A stretch of DNA of 34,892 bases from an uncultured Pelagibacteraceae bacterium (GTDB lineage: Bacteria > Pseudomonadota > Alphaproteobacteria > Pelagibacterales > Pelagibacteraceae): assembly GCA_902576045.1 (NCBI GenBank), contig CACGTU010000011.1, positions 1 through 34,892 of the forward strand, read 5' to 3'. Shown in pieces: positions 13,982 to 21,923 of the stretch (position 1 is the first letter of the stretch; each line of letters starts with the position of its first letter). The position numbers and the translations under genes were made by a program. The notes beneath the pieces were generated by a model, which was not told the DNA's origin, did not search any database, and worked only from the letters and a program-made list of their open reading frames with translations.

Positions 13982-14755
13982 GTGATTAAACCCCACATTC
14001 TTTTTGATAACAACAACCTCTCAATTAAGATTAAAAATTTTATTAAAAAAAAATTAGGTCATTACGCAATTGCAAAATCAGATTTGATAGTAGTCATTGG
14101 TGGTGACGGTTTTATGTTGGGATCACTTAAAAAATATTACAAATACAATAAAAAGTTTTATGGAATTAATTCTGGAAATTACGGTTTCCTAATGAATAAA
14201 TTTTCAACCAAACAGACTTTAAATAATCTATCTAAATCACTTAGAGTTGTAACAATTTCTCCATTGGAAATGATTGTAAGAACTAAATCAAATATAACTA
14301 AGAGATCTATTGCAATTAATGAGGTTTCAATTTTAAGACAAAGCAAACAAGCTGCATCATTATCAATTTCCAGTAATTCGAAAACTATTATTAAAAACTT
14401 AGTCTCGGATGGAGTTTTGGTATCTACTCCAGCAGGTAGCACAGCTTATAATTTGTCCGTTCATGGTCCGATATTAGATATCGACTCAAAAAAACTGGCT
14501 ATAAGTCCTATTAGTCCGTTTAGACCAAGAAGATGGAGGGGAAAGATAGTTGGAGATAAATCAAAAATAATTATTAAAAATATTAATCCCCTAAAAAGAC
14601 CAGTGAGCGCAGTTGCTGATAATGTTGAAGTAAGAAACGCAACTAATATTTCAATAAAAATAAATAAAAAAATAAAATTTAGCTTATTATATGACTCGAA
14701 TAGAAGTCTTCAAAAGAAAATTAAAATTGAACAAATTAGAAATGAAACAAATTAA
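13982..14755 (+). CDS. nadK: NAD kinase
   Basis: A 257-residue ATP-NAD kinase making NADP. IGGDGFML (39-46) holds the conserved GGDG with Asp42, AINEVSIL is the NE/D motif of the NAD site, and STPAGSTAYNLSVHGP is the substrate-binding signature. The start used is GTG at 13982, which places the GGDG motif near residue 40 as in short alphaproteobacterial NadKs. It leaves just 4 nt after the tRNA-Leu CCA, so no free ribosome-binding site exists outside the tRNA. Either the mRNA is translated leaderless after tRNA processing or the true start is a later codon. The next gene begins directly after the stop. Confidence 0.93.
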   Translation: MIKPHILFDNNNLSIKIKNFIKKKLGHYAIAKSDLIVVIGGDGFMLGSLKKYYKYNKKFYGINSGNYGFLMNKFSTKQTLNNLSKSLRVVTISPLEMIVRTKSNITKRSIAINEVSILRQSKQAASLSISSNSKTIIKNLVSDGVLVSTPAGSTAYNLSVHGPILDIDSKKLAISPISPFRPRRWRGKIVGDKSKIIIKNINPLKRPVSAVADNVEVRNATNISIKINKKIKFSLLYDSNRSLQKKIKIEQIRNETN

Positions 14756-15217
14756 ATGAGAAAATTTCTTTTATATATAATAATTAGTAATTTCATTTCG
14801 ATAAATGCAATTGCTACAAATATAAAAATTGATCATGAAATAAATACTTCTTTTAAGTGTAAATTTGATAAAATTATAATTAAAAATGCTGAATACAATT
14901 ACAAGGTTTTTACTTCAGACGAAATTGATAATGAGAATTTAGATAACTTTAAAATTGTCTCTAAAATACCAAAAGATTTAGCTATTAATGGGCTATCATC
15001 TTTCTTAAGTAATTCTGAAAATTTAGAAGTTAAAATTGTAAATACTGAAGTCGTTTTATTCAAAGGTTTTGATAAAACTAAAAATTATTCAGAGTCTGGA
15101 ATAATAAATAGAAAATCAGGAGAGCTAGTACACGAAATTACAAGAGATATAAATAGCGAAACATCGGAAAAAGATATTACTTTTTATAATTGTAAAGAAA
15201 CTAATAAAAACGTTTGA
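14756..15217 (+). CDS. Exported protein of unknown function
   Basis: A 153-residue protein I do not recognise. Residues 1-22 form a signal peptide (basic MRK, then a hydrophobic stretch, possible cleavage after AIA near residue 20). The mature part is hydrophilic and Lys/Asn/Glu-rich, with two cysteines, one near the start (FKCKF) and one near the end (FYNCKE), which could form a disulfide in the periplasm. The ATG directly follows the nadK stop codon, so the two are probably co-transcribed. The stop at 15215-15217 lies immediately before the island's left direct repeat, so the insertion has not damaged it. Confidence 0.75.
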   Translation: MRKFLLYIIISNFISINAIATNIKIDHEINTSFKCKFDKIIIKNAEYNYKVFTSDEIDNENLDNFKIVSKIPKDLAINGLSSFLSNSENLEVKIVNTEVVLFKGFDKTKNYSESGIINRKSGELVHEITRDINSETSEKDITFYNCKETNKNV

Positions 15218-15275
15218 AGATTTTAGTGGTGCCCCCGCACGGATTCGAACCGCGGACCTATTGATTACAAATCAA
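15218..15275. repeat. Left 58-bp direct repeat (att site) of genomic island
   Basis: A 58-bp segment identical to 21062-21119. It covers the 3' part of tRNA-Thr(UGU) on the minus strand (15227-15275: CCA end, acceptor 3' strand, T-arm, variable loop and anticodon arm down to the stem) plus 9 bp of downstream flank. The identity ends in the anticodon stem. It is the chromosomal half left behind, or duplicated, by site-specific integration. Confidence 0.9.
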
Positions 15276-15350
15276 AATAGTAATTAAAATATCCTTTCAT
15301 TAACGTTGATACTACTTACTTCTAGAGTCCCGTCAAGTTGGACCTTTAAA

Positions 15351-15371
15351 ATTCACCTTGTATTCACCTTG
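15351..15371. repeat. Paired ATTCACCTTG boxes, left arm
   Basis: Two copies of ATTCACCTTG at 15351-15360 and 15362-15371, 11-bp period (one helical turn), 75 bp inside the left att repeat. The same pair in the same orientation occurs near the right end. Candidate arm-type binding sites for a tyrosine integrase or its accessory factor. Confidence 0.6.
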
Positions 15372-15417
15372 CTTGGATATGTAGATTGAGTCATGCTTCC
15401 GAATTTGATATAAATTA

Positions 15418-15460
15418 TTTGTCCGTGATTTAGAAATAACTCTACTTGCTTCGGACATAA
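15418..15460. promoter_or_regulatory. Interrupted inverted repeat upstream of the 55-aa gene
   Basis: TGTCCG at 15420-15425 is mirrored by CGGACA at 15452-15457, and the flanks extend the symmetry imperfectly (TTAT / ATAA). The 26-bp spacer lies in the leader of the first island gene, where an operator or mRNA hairpin would be expected. Weak evidence. Confidence 0.3.
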
Positions 15461-15483
15461 AACAATAACGCTAAAGGAGAAAT

Positions 15484-15651
15484 ATGGCTACAATCTTAGA
15501 AGTCTATAAATTACTTAAACTTAAAAAAGAAAATGGTGAAGACATTGGGATGTTTGGAGAAAGCTTCATTGAAATGTGTGAAAAAGATGAAGAACCATCA
15601 ACAACAAGGGAAATTTCTTTAAGCTTTATTAAAAAAAATGATGGAGAATAA
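15484..15651 (+). CDS. Small hypothetical protein, 55 aa
   Basis: An open frame of 55 codons with a good ribosome-binding site, AGGAG at 15475-15479, four bases before ATG 15484. Such a clear site is unusual in this window and supports real translation. The product is acidic in its C-terminal half and Lys-rich near the N-terminus, with no cysteine cluster, membrane segment or signal peptide; predicted helix at residues 4-16. I do not recognise a family. As first gene of the island it could be a regulator or excisionase-sized accessory protein, but no DNA-binding motif is obvious. Confidence 0.55.
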   Translation: MATILEVYKLLKLKKENGEDIGMFGESFIEMCEKDEEPSTTREISLSFIKKNDGE

Positions 15652-15745
15652 CCTCGTTAAATCAAACTTTGAGGTAATTATAAAATACTTTTTTATGCTA
15701 TATTAGCTTTAATAATTTATATGATCGCTGTGAAAAAACAAATTT

Positions 15746-16498
15746 ATGTTTAGTAAAATCAAAAAATATTTCTCAGATAAAAAAGATGAAAAAGCTATTC
15801 TAAAAAGTCCTTTACACTTAAAAGCAATGAAAGCTGGACTCGCAGCAAATAAAGAATTGGGTTTAGATAAAATGGCAGAAAAATTTAGAACAATGCAGGG
15901 TGAGTATATTGGTGAGAGAGTAAACGAACTATTACTTGCACCAGACCAATTTAAATTGTTAAGAGAAATGATTACCAATGCTGTGTTAGAATTGAGTTCG
16001 TACGAAGTTTTAATTATTCAAAAAGACAAGAATGGATCACAAGGGCTATTAAAACATAAAGGAATAAGTGGAAAACTACATCAAGATTTGGACAAACTTT
16101 ATAAAAATGACAAAAAACTCAGAGAAAATCTTCATGGAACAAAAAATCCTGAAAAAATTACTACTAAATATTTATATACACTTACTAATGGTTTTTATAT
16201 CCATGCTGCATGGAAATTTACAGTCATTAACGCAATAAGAATTCATTTTAAAGACTACAATTCTAATATTGATAAAGACTGGATTACTCCATTTAGATAT
16301 TGCTCTTGTGTTTGGCACGAAGGTCAATATCGAAAGACTCTTAAATTAAAGCAGATAGTTAGCGATATAAATCGAATTCAGTATTCAACTTTTACAAATC
16401 TTGTATTAAATGGTGAAAAATATCCTGATTTAGAATTTTTAGAGGCTAATAAAGAAACTATAAAAGATAAGTCTTTATATTTTCCAAAAAAATGGTGA
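15746..16498 (+). CDS. Hypothetical protein, 250 aa, island cargo
   Basis: I do not recognise this protein. It is soluble, Lys-rich, without signal peptide or membrane segments. An N-terminal helical region (about 1-60) precedes a central region including FKLLREMITNAVLELSSYEV, then a tryptophan/histidine-bearing C-terminal part with FRYCSCVWHEGQYRKT near residues 193-208, where two cysteines and a histidine could matter. ATG 15746 has no strong ribosome-binding site. It sits 94 bp after the 55-aa gene and 49 bp before the nuclease-helicase gene in the same direction, so a functional link to that protein is plausible but unproven. Confidence 0.75.
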   Translation: MFSKIKKYFSDKKDEKAILKSPLHLKAMKAGLAANKELGLDKMAEKFRTMQGEYIGERVNELLLAPDQFKLLREMITNAVLELSSYEVLIIQKDKNGSQGLLKHKGISGKLHQDLDKLYKNDKKLRENLHGTKNPEKITTKYLYTLTNGFYIHAAWKFTVINAIRIHFKDYNSNIDKDWITPFRYCSCVWHEGQYRKTLKLKQIVSDINRIQYSTFTNLVLNGEKYPDLEFLEANKETIKDKSLYFPKKW

Positions 16499-16547
16499 TT
16501 AAAATAATATTACAAGATGATGAACTAAACAACTGAATCATTTTATA

Positions 16548-18821
16548 ATGATTGAAAGAAAGATAATAAACAAAGCAAAATCATTTAAAGATCTTGATAA
16601 AACACTTAAAAAACTAATTAAGAATAAGAAAGCAAAAATTGCTGGATCAATATTTGAATATTTAACCAAGCTATATCTAGAAGTTTCACCTGAATATAAA
16701 ACTAAGTTAAGTAAAGTTTATTTGCTTAATGAAGTTCCAACATCATTAAAGAAAAAATTAAGATTACCCAATACAGATGAAGGGATAGATTTAATAGCTG
16801 AAACATTTGATAATGAGTATTGGGCTATCCAATGTAAATATAGATCAGACAATACTGAAACCTTAAAGGTTAAAGGGGATCTTGCTACATTCAACAACCT
16901 AGCGTTTACAGTTTGTAAAAATATTTCTCATGGAATTGTTGCTGCAACAGTTAATAGACCACCCAAGAAAACTAAATTATTAAGTGTTGGATATATATTA
17001 CTTACTGAATGGTTGAATCTTGATAGAGATAATGGAGATTTATATAATCAAATCAAATTAAAAGCTGCAGGTAAAGTTAGTAGACCAAAACTTTTATCAC
17101 CAAGACCTCATCAAAAAGCAGCAATAGCAAAAACTATTTCATATTTTAAGTCTAATGAGCGAGGCAAAATGATTATGCCTTGTGGGACAGGTAAAAGCTT
17201 AACAGCATTTTGGATAGCTGAGAAAATGAGACCAAAATCTATTCTGGTTGCTGTTCCAAGTTTAGCGTTATTACAACAAACTCTCAAAGTATGGACTAGA
17301 GAATTTCTACTTCACAACATTCAACCTGATTGGCTATGTGTTTGCTCAGATGACACTGTTAAAGAAGAACAAGATGATTTTATAACCTTTTCAGCTGATC
17401 TTGGAATAAAAGTTGATACTGATCCAAGAACAATCAGAAACTTCCTAAGAAAGAAAACTAAAAAATTAAAGATAGTATTTACCACTTATCAATCAGGAAG
17501 AGCCACAGCAATTGGGTCAAAAGGATTTAATTATGATTTAGGTATTATGGATGAAGCCCATAAGACAGTTGGATCAGGTTCAAAGCCAATGGCCCATTTA
17601 CTTCATCAAAAGAATATTAAAATCAAAAAACGTTTATTTATGACTGCAACTGAAAGGTTATTCAGAGGTGATAGTGATGAATATATGTCTATGGATGATC
17701 CAAGAGACTATGGAGATTTAATTTATGAATTAAGTTTTAAAGAAGCAATAAATGCAAAACCACCAATTATATCTGACTATAAAATAATAACTTTTGGTAT
17801 TACTACCCCTGAAATAGAAAAGATTACTGAAGATAATAAGTATTTAGAGGTTAAAAAAGATCTTAAAGATATTACAGCAAGGGAACTTGCAACAGCTATT
17901 GCACTTAGAAAAGCAATTAAGAAATTAAAAATCAAAAATGCTATTTCATTTCACAGATCAATTAGAAGAGCTGATAATTTTAGAAAACAACAGGACTTAA
18001 TCTCAAAAGTTTACCCAACTTACGGAAAATTAAAAACCTTCCATGTAAAAGGAGATATGCCAACATCAGATAGAGCTTTAGAGATGCTGTCCTTTGAAGA
18101 GGAAAAAGGTTTAATGACTAATGCAAGATGTCTTACAGAAGGTGTTGATTTACCTGCAATTGATTGTGTTTGTTTTACAGACCCTAAAAGAAGTAAGGTT
18201 GATATTGTTCAAGCTGCAGGAAGAGCTTTACGTTTGTCAAAGGGTAAGAAGTTTGGATATATATTAATTCCAATATTTATCCCTGATGGAATGACCTTTG
18301 ATGAAGCTGCGGAGGAACAAGGTTTTGATGATGTATCCATAACAGTAAGAGCTTTAGCGACAACAGATAAAAGAATAGTTGAATATTTAAGAGCAATTTC
18401 AGAAGGTAAAAAACCTGGAGGTGGTAACCCAGTTGAAGGAATAACTTCTATTAATGAACTATATAAAGTTGAAGCTGAAAAGTTTAATAAAGCAGTTCAA
18501 TTAAAAATTTGGGACAAAGTTGGCTATGGTAATTGGAGAACATTTTTTGATGCTAGAGAATATGTCAGATCATTTAATCTTAAAAATCAAAATGAATGGT
18601 CTTTTTTTTGCAAGACAAAGAAACCAATAGATATTCCATCAAACCCTCAACTGGTTTATTCAGAGTTTAAAGGTTTAAATGATTTTATAGGTACAAAAAT
18701 TTTGTCAGGTCCTGCTAGGGCAAAAATGTTTGTTTCATTTTATGAGGCAAAAAAAATAGCTAGAGAAAACGATATTTGTCAAATTAAACAGTGGCATAAA
18801 TTTGTTAAAAAAAAACTATAA
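16548..18821 (+). CDS. Mrr-like nuclease plus SF2 helicase fusion, C-terminal repeats interrupted by frameshift
   Basis: A 757-residue product. Residues about 30-150 form a PD-(D/E)xK nuclease-like domain of the Mrr type: Glu37 (IFEYL), Asp81 in EGIDLIAE and Gln95-x-Lys97 in AIQCKY. The SF2 helicase core follows: Walker A MPCGTGKS (210-217), DEAH (335-338), motif III MTATER (365-370) and motif VI QAAGRALR (555-562). It resembles the predicted helicases of COG4889 and restriction-type translocases. From about 655 a repeat unit starts (WRTFFDAREYV, then NEWSFFCKT and IPSNPQLVY) that resembles phage-integrase repeat units. The frame stops at 18821 inside the second repeat, right after a run of nine A (18807-18815). 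Continuation is in the next frame. Possible roles are anti-phage defence or element maintenance. Confidence 0.85.
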   Translation: MIERKIINKAKSFKDLDKTLKKLIKNKKAKIAGSIFEYLTKLYLEVSPEYKTKLSKVYLLNEVPTSLKKKLRLPNTDEGIDLIAETFDNEYWAIQCKYRSDNTETLKVKGDLATFNNLAFTVCKNISHGIVAATVNRPPKKTKLLSVGYILLTEWLNLDRDNGDLYNQIKLKAAGKVSRPKLLSPRPHQKAAIAKTISYFKSNERGKMIMPCGTGKSLTAFWIAEKMRPKSILVAVPSLALLQQTLKVWTREFLLHNIQPDWLCVCSDDTVKEEQDDFITFSADLGIKVDTDPRTIRNFLRKKTKKLKIVFTTYQSGRATAIGSKGFNYDLGIMDEAHKTVGSGSKPMAHLLHQKNIKIKKRLFMTATERLFRGDSDEYMSMDDPRDYGDLIYELSFKEAINAKPPIISDYKIITFGITTPEIEKITEDNKYLEVKKDLKDITARELATAIALRKAIKKLKIKNAISFHRSIRRADNFRKQQDLISKVYPTYGKLKTFHVKGDMPTSDRALEMLSFEEEKGLMTNARCLTEGVDLPAIDCVCFTDPKRSKVDIVQAAGRALRLSKGKKFGYILIPIFIPDGMTFDEAAEEQGFDDVSITVRALATTDKRIVEYLRAISEGKKPGGGNPVEGITSINELYKVEAEKFNKAVQLKIWDKVGYGNWRTFFDAREYVRSFNLKNQNEWSFFCKTKKPIDIPSNPQLVYSEFKGLNDFIGTKILSGPARAKMFVSFYEAKKIARENDICQIKQWHKFVKKKL

Positions 18822-19002
18822 GCAAAATATACCTATGCATCCTGATAGAGCATATAAAAAAGAATTTGTTTCATTTGATGATTTTTTTGAGAATAGATTT
18901 ATTTCTATGAAAAATAGAACTTTTCTAGATTATGATAAAGCTAAAAAATCTATTCGTAAATTAAATATCAAAAATCATAAAGAATGGAAAAAAATTCATT
19001 AA
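18802..19002 (+). pseudogene. Frameshifted continuation of the nuclease-helicase, repeats 2-3
   Basis: In the +1 frame, reading begins inside the A9 tract and gives KKNYKQNIPMHPDRAY, which completes repeat 2 exactly where the helicase frame breaks off. A third unit follows up to HKEWKK. If the A9 run were A8, the protein would continue without interruption. The frame then hits a stop at 19000-19002 shortly after an A7 run (18988-18994). It is unlikely to be an independent gene: no ribosome-binding site is visible and the only early start is TTG. Confidence 0.7.
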
Positions 19003-19642
19003 TAGTAAAAATTTTCCTACAAACATTCCAAAAGCACCAGATCAATACTATAAAAATTTTGAAGGTTTTGAAATTTTTTGGGGCAAAGAAAAGTTTCCTT
19101 TTTTATCAGGAAAAGAACATTTAGATTTAGTTAAAAAACATAAAATAAAAACTCATGGAGAATGGAAAAAATTTGTTAAAAAAAATTCAAATAAATTAAG
19201 ATTATATATTCACTTAGAACGTTTAGATGCTTATAAAAAAGATCCAATATTTGAAAAAGCAAATTATTGGCAATTTGAAAAAGTAAAAAAATACATAAAA
19301 AAATTTAAATTTAAATCAATGTCACATTATAGGAAGTTTATTAAAAAAAATGATTTATCCAAAAAAATACCTCTATATCCTATTAGGGTATATAAAAATG
19401 ACTACACTAGTGCAGGTGATTATTTGTCCAATGGCTACATTGCACCACAAGATAGAGATTATCTAACTTTAGATAATTCAAAAAAAATTCTAAAAAGAAA
19501 AAAAATAACTTCTATTAATGATTTCATAAGCTTTACTAAAAAACCTGGATTTGAAAAATATAATATTCCAAAATCTCCTGAATATTTTTATAAGAAATCT
19601 AATGCTTGGAAAGGCTGGACTGATTTTTTAGGCAAGAAATGA
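18965..19642 (+). pseudogene. Second frameshifted continuation, repeats 3-6
   Basis: Removing one A from the A7 run at 18988-18994 joins EWKK to FINSKNFPTNIPKAPDQYY in a third frame, which stays open to the stop at 19640-19642. It encodes about three and a half further units of 50-60 residues, with recurring EW..F (HGEWKKFV), IP..P..VY (IPLYPIRVYK) and the terminal WKGWTDFLG, typical of the end of integrase-repeat arrays. The restored protein would be roughly 1,030 residues. An internal ATG at 19319 could make a 107-residue piece, but continuity of repeats across it argues for one broken or recoded gene. Confidence 0.7.
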
Positions 19643-19839
19643 AAAAGTTTTGAAATTTTGCAAAATTTTTTTAGGTCATGTTTCAAAACAAAAATATTTT
19701 TTTCAGGTCTAGCTGTCCAAACCTTTGTATATACTAGAACTATATGAGACTCCTAATTTGTAAAAAGGGGATGGGGGTCGGTTAACAAATCGAAAACTGA
19801 AATTGTCTTAGTATCTTTTTATTAATATAATGTTCGTTA
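19643..19839. other. 197-bp intergenic region with G-rich motif
   Basis: No gene seen. Contains the terminator-like palindrome, a G-rich patch (GGGGATGGGGGTCGG near 19767-19781) that stands out in this AT-rich DNA, and GTTAAC just after it. The likely promoter of the small-ORF operon lies here, possibly the TATAAT-like AT-rich stretch near 19825. Confidence 0.45.
19653..19672 (+). terminator. Possible intrinsic terminator after the helicase gene
   Basis: A palindrome AAATTTTGCAAAATTT (19653-19668) running into a T7 run (19666-19672), 11 bp after the stop. The stem is entirely A-T apart from the centre, so it is weak. Confidence 0.35.
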
Positions 19840-20106
19840 ATGAAAGATAAGAAACAAAGCACAATGGATAGAATTCTAAACTATATGTTTGAGAATAAAC
19901 TGAATACTTCCATTACTTGTATTGTTTATTTGTTGATATGTAAGGTTATTGATATGAACACAATCCAATGGTTTGGGGATGAAATCTTTATTGATCCAAG
20001 CAAAGGGAACATATTAGAATTTATTGTTGTTTATACATTCTTTGGATCCTGTGTAGTTGTTGGGATAGCAATTATAGTTGAGGCGCTAAAGGGGAAGTTA
20101 TTCTAA
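19840..20106 (+). CDS. Small membrane protein, 88 aa
   Basis: An unrecognised protein with two predicted membrane segments, about residues 22-39 (ITCIVYLLICKVI) and 57-82 (ILEFIVVYTFFGSCVVVGIAIIVEAL), separated by a polar loop. No signal peptide. It opens a chain of small ORFs in which each start overlaps the preceding stop; here TAATG joins it to the next gene. Location in the island and overlap structure suggest co-translation. Confidence 0.65.
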   Translation: MKDKKQSTMDRILNYMFENKLNTSITCIVYLLICKVIDMNTIQWFGDEIFIDPSKGNILEFIVVYTFFGSCVVVGIAIIVEALKGKLF

Positions 20107-20312
20107 TGGCCTGGTACAATCTAAATAGTTCAGATAAGATCACAAAAGAAATAGTTGAGAGACCACCACTTGGTAAATGTGGATTTTGTGGAAGTCATGA
20201 TGTTAAGATTAAAACTAGAATGAAGATCTACATATCAGAACATGAAATAGAAGATACCAATTGCTGCTACAGCTGCTATCACCAGAATAGTAAGAAAGCC
20301 ATTGCTACATGA
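20106..20312 (+). CDS. Small zinc-ribbon-like protein, 68 aa
   Basis: An unrecognised 68-residue protein with two cysteine pairs, KCGFCG near residues 23-28 and CCYSC near 53-57, spaced as in a zinc ribbon. The residues between them are mixed charged strand-like segments. It could bind nucleic acid or a partner protein. The start overlaps the preceding stop by one base and its end overlaps the next start by 4 nt (ATGA). Confidence 0.65.
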   Translation: MAWYNLNSSDKITKEIVERPPLGKCGFCGSHDVKIKTRMKIYISEHEIEDTNCCYSCYHQNSKKAIAT

Positions 20313-20644
20313 AGAAACTATTTTCAACTATTTTGTTTCTAGGTCTAATTTTAAGCGGGAATGTTTATGCAAAAGAGGATGTATTAAGATGTTCTATAAA
20401 ATTTTTATCCGAGCTAAAGGAACCTGATATAAGAATGGAAGTAGAGATTGATTTAGATAAAAAGAAAATGTGGGTAGATGGTGATAAGTTCAACATTAAA
20501 TTGATAGGTGAAAGAGCTATAAAAGCAGAAAATTCTACAGGTAATGTTAAGATTTCAATAGATAGGTTTGATGGTCATGTGACCATGGAAGCTCTTAGCT
20601 CTAGGTACGCTGGTTATTGTAAAAAATACAAAAAGATATTTTAA
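20309..20644 (+). CDS. Small exported protein, 111 aa
   Basis: An unrecognised protein with a clear signal peptide: MKK, a hydrophobic core and a likely cleavage after VYA at about residue 22. The mature part, about 89 residues, looks beta-rich (IRMEVEIDLDKKKMWVDGD, then VKISIDRFDGHVTME) and has one cysteine near each end that could pair in the periplasm. It overlaps neighbours on both sides (ATGA upstream, TAATG downstream). Confidence 0.68.
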   Translation: MKKLFSTILFLGLILSGNVYAKEDVLRCSIKFLSELKEPDIRMEVEIDLDKKKMWVDGDKFNIKLIGERAIKAENSTGNVKISIDRFDGHVTMEALSSRYAGYCKKYKKIF

Positions 20645-20877
20645 TGAAAAAAGTATCAATAATAATATTCTTATTACTACTTGCTGCTCCAGCATCAGCT
20701 GAAAAGGTCCAGATGTTGGCTAAGGAAACAACAGTCAGTGCATTAATTGAAAATGGTTGGCAGTTACATACTGTCAGTAGTAGTGATTATGTTATTACAT
20801 ATACATTAATTAGATTTGGTGAAGTGGTAACATGTAAGGTTGATTCTAAAGATAGAATAAAATGTTTTAAACCGTGA
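20644..20877 (+). CDS. Small exported protein, 77 aa
   Basis: An unrecognised protein with a signal peptide (MKKVSIIIFLLLLAAPASA, cleavage after ASA at residue 19). The mature part is about 58 residues and has two cysteines near the end (VVTCKV and IKCFKP) and a beta-strand pattern (DYVITYTLIRFGE). The start overlaps the preceding stop (TAATG) and the stop overlaps a further ATG (TGATG). Confidence 0.65.
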   Translation: MKKVSIIIFLLLLAAPASAEKVQMLAKETTVSALIENGWQLHTVSSSDYVITYTLIRFGEVVTCKVDSKDRIKCFKP

Positions 20878-20996
20878 TGTCTAAGAAACGCAAGTTAGAT
20901 AAAGATTTTTCTAAGAGAGATTATAATAAAAAAATATATCTTAAAAGATTCACCTTGGATTCACCTTGTTCATTTATCTCCCCATCCTTTCTATAG
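20877..20996 (+). CDS. Possible small basic peptide, 39 aa
   Basis: An ATG overlapping the previous stop in a TGATG junction opens 39 codons ending at TAG 20994-20996. The N-terminal 24 residues are very basic (SKKRKLDKDFSKRDY), and the C-terminal part is encoded by the right-arm ATTCACCTTG boxes. The coupling pattern of the four genes before it favours translation. It might alternatively be a decayed end of a longer gene, for example of a lost recombinase. Confidence 0.4.
   Translation: MSKKRKLDKDFSKRDYNKKIYLKRFTLDSPCSFISPSFL
20948..20968. repeat. Paired ATTCACCTTG boxes, right arm
   Basis: Copies at 20948-20957 and 20959-20968, 11-bp period, the same orientation and spacing as the left pair, ending 93 bp before the right att repeat. 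In a circularised element the two pairs would flank the core on both sides, as arm sites do. Confidence 0.6.
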
Positions 20997-21061
20997 CTTA
21001 ATACAACGATTTTTATTTTTAAAAAAAACTAAGTAAAATTTGAGTTTGTTGAAAATAAATG

Positions 21062-21119
21062 AGATTTTAGTGGTGCCCCCGCACGGATTCGAACCGCGGA
21101 CCTATTGATTACAAATCAA
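21062..21119. repeat. Right 58-bp direct repeat (att site)
   Basis: Identical to 15218-15275. It contains the 3' part of the intact tRNA-Thr plus 9 bp beyond CCA. The identity ends at the anticodon stem, the usual crossover neighbourhood for integrases that target the anticodon loop. Confidence 0.9.
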
Positions 21120-21146
21120 TTGCTCTACCAACTGAGCTACAAGGGC
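21071..21146 (-). tRNA. tRNA-Thr (anticodon UGU)
   Basis: On the minus strand the acceptor GCCCTTG pairs with CGGGGGC (two G-T pairs), the D-arm is AGCTCAGTTGGTAGAGC, the anticodon loop is TTTGTAA with anticodon TGT, and the T-arm is GCGGTTCGAATCCGTGC. CCA is encoded (21071-21073). It is the integration target of the island; its 3' half is duplicated at 15227-15275. Confidence 0.97.
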
Positions 21147-21179: not shown

Positions 21180-21923
21180 TCAAGATATTTTTTTATGTTG
21201 ATTTATATGATGAAAAACTATGGCCGCACTATTAGAAATATTTAAACTTTCTACATTTTCATTGATTTTAATCTTTACTGAAAAATCTGTATATTTATTT
21301 GTATGATGTTTAATTCCAGAACCTTCAGAACCAAATAGTAAAATATTATTTCCCTCCCATTTAATATCTATAAAATCTTTATTGCTTTTCGAGTCAAACC
21401 CATAAACCCAAAAATTCTTATCTCTTAGAAATTTAAGGGTGGTATTTATATTTGACACTTCAAAGATATTAAGATGCTCAACACAGCCACTAGCAGATTT
21501 GTACATTAATTTGCTTTCTTTTGGAAAATGTCTTTCCTTAACAATTAATCCATCTATGTTAAAAGATGCAGCGCTTCTAATTAATGACCCTATATTTCTT
21601 GGATCAGTAACTTCATCTAAACATACAAATGTTAAATTATTTTTGTCTGATATAAATTCTTTTAACTCAATTTTTTCTAAATGTTCTATTTCTGCAACAT
21701 AGCCTTGATGAAGTATGCCTTCATTTTTAGAATATTTGTCTAATTCTTTCTTGGTTTTGAAATATATTTTGACATCCTTCAATAAATTTTTTTTAGGACT
21801 TAATCTGTGAATATTTTTTTTACTTTCCTCAGTTAAAAATACTTTTAAAATCTTCCTTTTTTCATTTTTTAAAGCCTCAAAAACAGCGTGTTTACCAACA
21901 ATAAAAAAAGATGATTTGTTCAT
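21180..21923 (-). CDS. rlmB: 23S rRNA (guanosine-2'-O-)-methyltransferase RlmB (SpoU/TrmH family)
   Basis: A 247-residue SPOUT methyltransferase. The N-terminal substrate-binding domain contains IVGKHAVFEAL (8-18) and the HQG turn (72-74). The knotted domain shows motif I DPRNIGSLIR (107-116), motif II LFGSEGSGI (196-204) and motif III ESLNISNSAAI (225-235). The family 2'-O-methylates G2251 in the peptidyl-transferase P-loop of 23S rRNA. Motif III has NSAA where many homologs have VSVA, a modest variation. It lies between tRNA-Thr and the tuf cluster, transcribed leftward, divergent from tRNA-Tyr. TrmH-family tRNA methylases are the alternative, but the N-terminal domain favours RlmB. Confidence 0.9.
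   Translation of the reverse strand: MNKSSFFIVGKHAVFEALKNEKRKILKVFLTEESKKNIHRLSPKKNLLKDVKIYFKTKKELDKYSKNEGILHQGYVAEIEHLEKIELKEFISDKNNLTFVCLDEVTDPRNIGSLIRSAASFNIDGLIVKERHFPKESKLMYKSASGCVEHLNIFEVSNINTTLKFLRDKNFWVYGFDSKSNKDFIDIKWEGNNILLFGSEGSGIKHHTNKYTDFSVKIKINENVESLNISNSAAIVFHHINQHKKIS

Follow-up and report, generated by a model that had tools for sequence, protein, structure and literature searches.

An integrase-less island at the tRNA-Thr gene of a SAR11 bacterium is probably moved in trans by arm-binding tyrosine integrases

SAR11 bacteria count among the ocean's most abundant cells, and their streamlined genomes contain few recognised mobile elements. Here we describe an island of about 5.8 kb at the tRNA-Thr(UGU) gene of an uncultured Pelagibacteraceae bacterium of this group, found in a stretch of 34,892 nucleotides (the window; contig CACGTU010000011.1 of assembly GCA_902576045.1). 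We consider it likely that the island is a non-autonomous integrative element that would be moved in trans by an arm-binding tyrosine integrase. This reading draws on the attachment (att) repeats and arm pairs of the island, the matching of left and right arms across a family of related cassettes, empty sites in relatives, the lack of an integrase, integrase-bearing kin and identical cassettes in divergent hosts.

The island is bounded by identical direct repeats of 58 nucleotides whose starts lie 5844 nucleotides apart. ARAGORN predicted one intact tRNA-Thr(TGT), and the repeat corresponds to positions 28-76 of this tRNA (the 3' 49 nucleotides, anticodon loop included) together with 9 nucleotides downstream. 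The left copy is a displaced 3' half of tRNA-Thr, and an exact 58-nucleotide repeat of a tRNA half far exceeds what chance would produce. Only accessory open reading frames (ORFs) lie inside the element, with nadK to its left and rlmB to its right, which confirms the exact duplication and the partition into accessory and housekeeping genes proposed in the initial annotation. The boundary features are as follows.

13982-14755, plus strand: nadK, left housekeeping flank (ORF); ends a few bp from tRNA-Thr in five empty-site genomes
14756-15217, plus strand: gene for an exported protein of 153 amino acids, outside the left repeat; 93% identical in the relative AG-360-M22
15218-15275, plus strand: left copy of the 58-bp repeat, att site with the displaced tRNA-Thr 3' half (repeat comparison)
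15352-15371, plus strand: putative left arm pair, TTCACCTTG-TA-TTCACCTTG, in full TTCACCTTGTATTCACCTTG, with an 11-bp period; 77 bp from the repeat
20949-20968, plus strand: putative right arm pair, TTCACCTTG-GA-TTCACCTTG, in full TTCACCTTGGATTCACCTTG; 94 bp from the repeat, oriented as the left pair
21062-21119, plus strand: right copy of the 58-bp repeat, within the functional tRNA-Thr (repeat comparison)
21071-21146, minus strand: tRNA-Thr(UGU), the integration target (ARAGORN)
21180-21923, minus strand: rlmB, right housekeeping flank (ORF)

Five relatives of the genus (L039, L040, L041, L054 and L055) have an empty site in which nadK is followed within a few bp by a single tRNA-Thr, as expected of a cleanly bounded integrative element. 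The exported-protein gene at 14756-15217 is missing from all five and is not part of the ancestral site; the predicted empty site, with the exported-protein gene next to tRNA-Thr, was not found, as it is nadK that joins the tRNA directly. In other relatives, the interval between nadK and tRNA-Thr holds different elements, each of which terminates in a copy of the tRNA 3' half. These are frequently arranged in tandem, with three such copies in L066 and in L072 and five in genome G467 (locus L087). An exact 45-nucleotide pattern of the tRNA half occurs in 268 of 399 genomes of the genus, about 85 of which, by a hand count from the table, carry at least two copies of the 3' half, and up to five. 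tRNA-Thr(UGU) is a hotspot in SAR11.

Family searches of the island ORFs detected no integrase, relaxase or transfer family, and no terminase, primase or replication-initiation gene. The sole PF00589 protein of the genome (1.14 Mb, 51 contigs, 83% complete) lies on another contig, matches Xer recombinases best and scores far below the cut-off for integron integrases. A tandem motif, TTCACCTTGNATTCACCTTG, is present inside both island ends and has the same orientation at each. Such arm-pair matches are expected 0.01 times per dinucleotide-shuffled window; in its own genome the pattern occurs exactly twice, at the two island ends, and it is absent from 396 other genomes of the order. Their position, direct orientation and pairing suggest that these motifs are arm-type sites of an integrase. 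Three exact matches to the pattern in viral contigs were taken as chance: a phage protein-coding gene contained two of them, and the third lay at the end of a contig of different composition. The left-arm region gave chance matches only against 50,697 phages.

The island belongs to a larger family. The sequences between successive copies of the tRNA 3' half yielded 37 elements, 36 from relatives plus the window island, which at 5.84 kb is the largest (minimum 0.76 kb, median 1.5 kb). Nothing in these elements was similar to 17 SAR11 arm-type integrases, to the integrase of the viral contig L086 described below or to the Xer-like protein; a Pfam search of 76 cassette ORFs returned no integrase family, and in 25 genomes all PF00589 matches fell outside the nadK-tRNA-Thr interval. 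The hotspot of G649, a genome not included in those 25, contains arms, a core and a truncated integrase matching only about the N-terminal 74 residues, and looks like a product of integrase decay. The ORF families of the cassettes comprise restriction-type nucleases (DpnI, PvuII, SRA and NucS) as well as Mom, GIY-YIG, prepilins and others. A 4-kb cassette of G467 (L087:1846-5849) carries a run of similar-sized ORFs, several of which are probably prepilin-like; the cassette set as a whole gave 8 N_methyl matches.

Nearly all elements of the family carry a tandem motif 90-130 bp from their ends, for which a period of 11 was best in 36 of 36 right ends and 29 of 36 left ends. The motif itself varies among elements (for example GTCACACTAGCGTCACAGTG, GACAACAATCTGACAACA and CGACACACGTACGACACA), and left and right arms match: the mean local score was 12.8 within elements and 8.0 for shuffled partners, with 0 of 20,000 shuffles equalling it. 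Reverse-complemented, core-adjacent and interior windows displayed no such excess, and the result was robust to taking one element per genome and to leaving out the window island. The first start codon of many cassettes is found about 15-40 bp past the left arm pair, which is the position of the int start in L086; binding of an integrase might therefore regulate the cargo as well. A search of viral contigs for the arms CGACTACAAATCGACTACA found none.

Evidence of movement comes from cassettes shared by distant hosts. One cassette has an 822-bp interior that is 100% identical in G467 and G560, at different array positions; the rlmB regions of these two hosts share 77.6% identity. Another pair of cassettes matches at 100% over 617 bp in hosts at 78%. 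As these identical cassettes lack an integrase, they must have been moved by something else. The continued mobility suggested in the initial annotation is therefore supported for the family, while the window island itself offers no such evidence.

We then considered which elements could provide the integrase. A scan of IMG/VR for the tRNA-Thr core returned two contigs, L085, a phage with a whole tRNA-Thr, and L086 (8.9 kb), which contains the tRNA-Thr 3' half without an intact tRNA, flanked on its two sides by the arm pairs TCCGCAATCTGTCCGCAA and GTCCGCACTATGTCCGCAA. Directly after the second arm pair of L086 begins a tyrosine recombinase of 328 amino acids (PF00589). Together with a primase-like AAA protein and a Terminase_2 small subunit encoded on the same contig, this gives L086 the gene content of a phage satellite. 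In its structural model (mean pLDDT 87), strands at residues 2-7, 10-15 and 23-27 and a helix at 30-45 form an N-terminal beta-beta-beta-alpha fold, and the best PDB matches are full-length lambda integrase; the predicted structure, with arm-binding, core-binding and catalytic domains, is consistent with a tyrosine integrase of the arm-binding class (PMC8138268). In genome G563 (L108), an integrase 73% identical to that of L086 directly follows nadK and a tRNA-Thr core, with arms CTGCAACACTACTGCAACA; this arm motif recurs in three integrase-less cassettes, narrowly above the reversed-window control. The arms of L086 share a 15-mer, ATCTGTCCGCACTAT, with one chromosomal cassette of G467, also above that control, and the overlap of L124 arms with cassette arms was not above it. 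Within IMG/VR the integrase of L086 had no relative but itself, and when tRNA-Thr was compared with phages the matches listed were ordinary phage tRNAs.

The 6.5-kb viral contig L003, whose helicase is 84% identical to that of the window island, encodes the N-terminus of TerS and a primase-like AAA protein; inspection by eye suggests an integrase C-terminus at the contig edge. G077 harbors a probably intact satellite of about 6.4 kb at tRNA-Asn (L138:8277-14780); its arms are GGTCGCACTATGGTCGCAA, and its integrase shares 76% identity with the L086 enzyme. At L110, L111, L113, L115 and L119, integrases of the same family lie directly beside tRNA-Met(CAT) with arm pairs TTGTCACAAGCCTGTCACA, and the arm layout is therefore general in SAR11 integrases.

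The nearest kin of the island inform its age. Eight relatives of its helicase were found in GTDB genomes, all Pelagibacteraceae, six of them at the same tRNA-Thr. The close relative AG-360-M22 (L130; rlmB protein 99% and flanking DNA 96-97% identical) carries the same element at the same site, with the left half 95% identical, both arm pairs identical and an unbroken helicase of about 1040 amino acids. Its genes differ from those of the window between about 18520 and 20942, and homology returns exactly at the right arm. The insertion therefore predates the split of the two genomes, and the cargo from about 18520 to the right arm has been replaced since; the perfect identity of the repeats, from which a recent insertion had been proposed, is ruled out as a clock.

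More distant helicase elements differ in their arms. The end sequences of L132/L133 and of L134/L136/L137 are homologous to those of the window island, with the arm pair AAAAAGACTAC or AAATCGACTAC versus ATTCACCTTGT; the helicase part of the window is 82-84% identical to that of the L132-L136 elements, and the hosts are 74-80% identical. Among these homologous elements three arm sequences occur, and for every one of them the two ends agree (window/L130, L132/L133 and L134/L136); L137 provides a right end only, and the comparison of both ends covers the other helicase elements. The arm sequence has thus changed at both ends together, as matching to a trans-acting protein predicts.

On this basis we propose the following model. 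An incoming phage satellite or temperate phage would supply an arm-binding tyrosine integrase in trans, and the arm-binding domain would pick cassettes with matching arms. Insertion would occur by recombination of the circularised element with the tRNA-Thr gene within their shared tRNA core, the incoming element's own core restoring tRNA-Thr, and excision by recombination of the two flanking core copies with each other. Since each new insertion would land beside the tRNA, elements would stack into cassette arrays; since the arm sequence would set which integrase moves which cassette, both arms would change together. The cassettes have docking signals but no integrase of their own, and therefore probably borrow the integrases of phage satellites. 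For the window island, the helper integrase gene would be expected beside ATTCACCTTGNATTCACCTTG and a tRNA-Thr core, and satellite or phage particles, vesicles and natural uptake are candidate carriers of the DNA between cells.

Several observations weigh against this model. The putative arm-site function is read from position, pairing and covariation; an integrase with TTCACCTTG arms was not found in viral contigs, phages or 397 genomes of the order; and no excised circle of such cassettes was seen, the core pattern matching only the two IMG/VR contigs. The island may also be static, given the two frame breaks in its helicase and its common descent with the island of AG-360-M22. The most serious alternative, which we regard as unlikely although not negligible, is a relic. 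The island would then be what remains of a satellite or phage after loss of the integrase in situ (a decayed cis-mobilizable element, CIME), now inherited only vertically, its cargo changed by homologous recombination between shared ends. The missing integrase, the broken helicase frame, the same island at the same site in AG-360-M22 and the cargo replacement with its breakpoint at the right arm all fit this history; the truncated integrase at the G649 hotspot shows that such decay occurs, and the same helicase resides in the satellite-like contig L003 together with a TerS fragment and, as read by eye, an integrase C-terminus. However, both arm pairs of the island are intact, identical and in register, and decay does not predict that homologous elements switch arm sequence at both ends together. 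For other cassettes without an integrase, recent transfer between divergent hosts is clear, although this is no proof that the window island still moves.

A resident Xer-like recombinase of about 317-325 amino acids, single in most SAR11 genomes checked, could instead move the cassettes in the manner of an integron. Most of these genomes have no other PF00589 protein, but the best NCBIfam matches of this recombinase are Xer, and because its SAM-like core-binding domain starts near the N-terminus, an additional domain for arm binding would not fit. Paired arm sites of changing sequence are unfit for one conserved simple recombinase, and dedicated arm-binding integrases with the same core exist, so we consider this explanation very improbable. 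Least credible of all is that the 58-bp repeat reflects an assembly duplication or contamination, a possible refutation raised in the initial annotation. The genome is indeed an 83%-complete draft in 51 contigs, but independent genomes show the same structure with different cargo, as does a 1.46-Mb contig of the 99%-complete G067; because the separate single-cell genome AG-360-M22 has the same structure and many genomes the same architecture, the repeat is not an assembly duplication. Collectively, movement in trans by an arm-binding integrase is the reading we favour.

The cargo of the island consists of the following genes.

15484-15651, plus strand: ORF of 55 amino acids, 100% identical in AG-360-M22
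15746-16498, plus strand: ORF of 250 amino acids with no confident family in the family search, 99% identical in AG-360-M22
16548-18821, plus strand: protein of 757 amino acids with an Mrr-type nuclease domain and a DEAD/ResIII helicase (Mrr_cat_2, ResIII, Helicase_C)
18802-19642, plus strand: C-terminal repeat region of the helicase protein in two further frames (ORFs); integrase-repeat-like in the intact homologue by a weak INT_rpt match
19840-20106, plus strand: membrane-like ORF of 88 amino acids
20106-20312, plus strand: Cys-rich ORF of 68 amino acids
20309-20644, plus strand: exported ORF of 111 amino acids
20644-20877, plus strand: exported ORF of 77 amino acids

The 757-amino-acid helicase is the N-terminal part of a protein of about 950-1110 amino acids that is intact in L003 and L130-L137. 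Its two frame breaks fall in A-runs near 18807-18815 and 18986-18993, where the relatives are unbroken, and may reflect sequencing error, a pseudogene or slippage, all of which fit. Export signals are likely in two of the four small ORFs of the right part, and the cargo of Mrr-helicase and small exported proteins is probably anti-phage or surface-related. Padloc matches of the helicase (IIG and PbeA) reflect a shared Mrr/helicase core only, and we rejected them as proof of a named defense system.

The neighbourhood of the hotspot varies in other ways. A dmdA-like gene (GcvT family, by eye) occupies the place of the exported-protein gene, between nadK and the array, in L066, L072, L074 and L133, and in L042, L044, L045, L046 and other genomes no tRNA-Thr lies within 1.5 kb of rlmB. 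There also seems to be a second class of elements that integrates on the other side of the same tRNA-Thr: 27 IMG/VR contigs (L004-L030) contain the tRNA-Thr 5' half, GATTACAAATCAATTGCTCTACCAACTGAGCTACAAGGGC, and lack the 3' half. In most of them a conserved cttatata follows, and the contigs were kept out of the cassette analysis as a different integration class. A 6.4-kb insert between tRNA-Thr and rlmB in G019 (L080:6577-13018), with a second copy of the 5' half beside rlmB, fits this 5'-side class.

tRNA-bounded cassettes in the additive islands of streamlined bacteria, CIMEs and integrase-less integron arrays are already known. Like CIMEs (PMC5704250), the island keeps both att sites without integration and transfer genes, and its family forms tandem accretions at the end of the target gene. 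CIMEs, however, are described as decayed integrative and conjugative or integrative and mobilizable elements moved in cis with a neighbouring integrative element (PMC5704250), whereas the SAR11 cassettes, at 0.8-5.8 kb, have no conjugation genes and no integrative neighbour, and their arms covary by class; the related elements that bear on such descent were satellite-like, not conjugative. The additive flexible genomic islands of Ca. Actinomarinales (PMC7771536) and fGI-2 of Methylopumilus (PMC10872708) likewise place small cassettes at tRNA genes of streamlined marine or freshwater bacteria with direct repeats of the tRNA end. We found the same combination here, a tRNA gene with a repeat of its end and variable content in relatives, but the passages on those islands report the repeats without arm sites, arm covariation or matching integrase donors.

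CALINs, integron cassette arrays without an integrase (PMC11389934), depend on an integrase in trans, as proposed for the SAR11 cassettes; their sites are attC used by IntI, whereas the SAR11 site is a tRNA half with putative arm pairs for a phage-type integrase. L086, L003 and L138 resemble phage satellites such as phage-inducible chromosomal islands (PICI) and their minimalist counterparts (PICMI), virion-encapsidated integrative mobile elements (VEIMEs) and tycheposons (PMC11389934) in having an integrase, a primase-like AAA or large replication protein and, in two of them, a small terminase, and L086 has the same att core and related cargo genes. The window island differs from satellites in having no integrase, primase or terminase gene, and from tycheposons, which by the definition in PMC10872708 require their own tyrosine recombinase, in having none. 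The open literature searched, which did not include the key tycheposon and VEIME papers, contained no report of covarying arm pairs tying integrase-less tRNA cassettes to satellite integrases, nor of a tRNA-Thr cassette array in SAR11.

In summary, a tRNA gene of SAR11 may sustain an integron-like economy in the absence of any integron, in which shared integrase-less cassettes of distinct arm-site compatibility classes would circulate between species whenever a satellite or phage brings a matching integrase; we regard the case for this wider picture as evenly balanced. Cassettes made of docking sites and cargo alone would explain how SAR11 gains and swaps defense and surface genes at negligible cost. 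Phage satellites would become providers of recombination for these cassettes, and the covarying arm pairs would be readable as a code from which the integrase that moves each cassette can be predicted.

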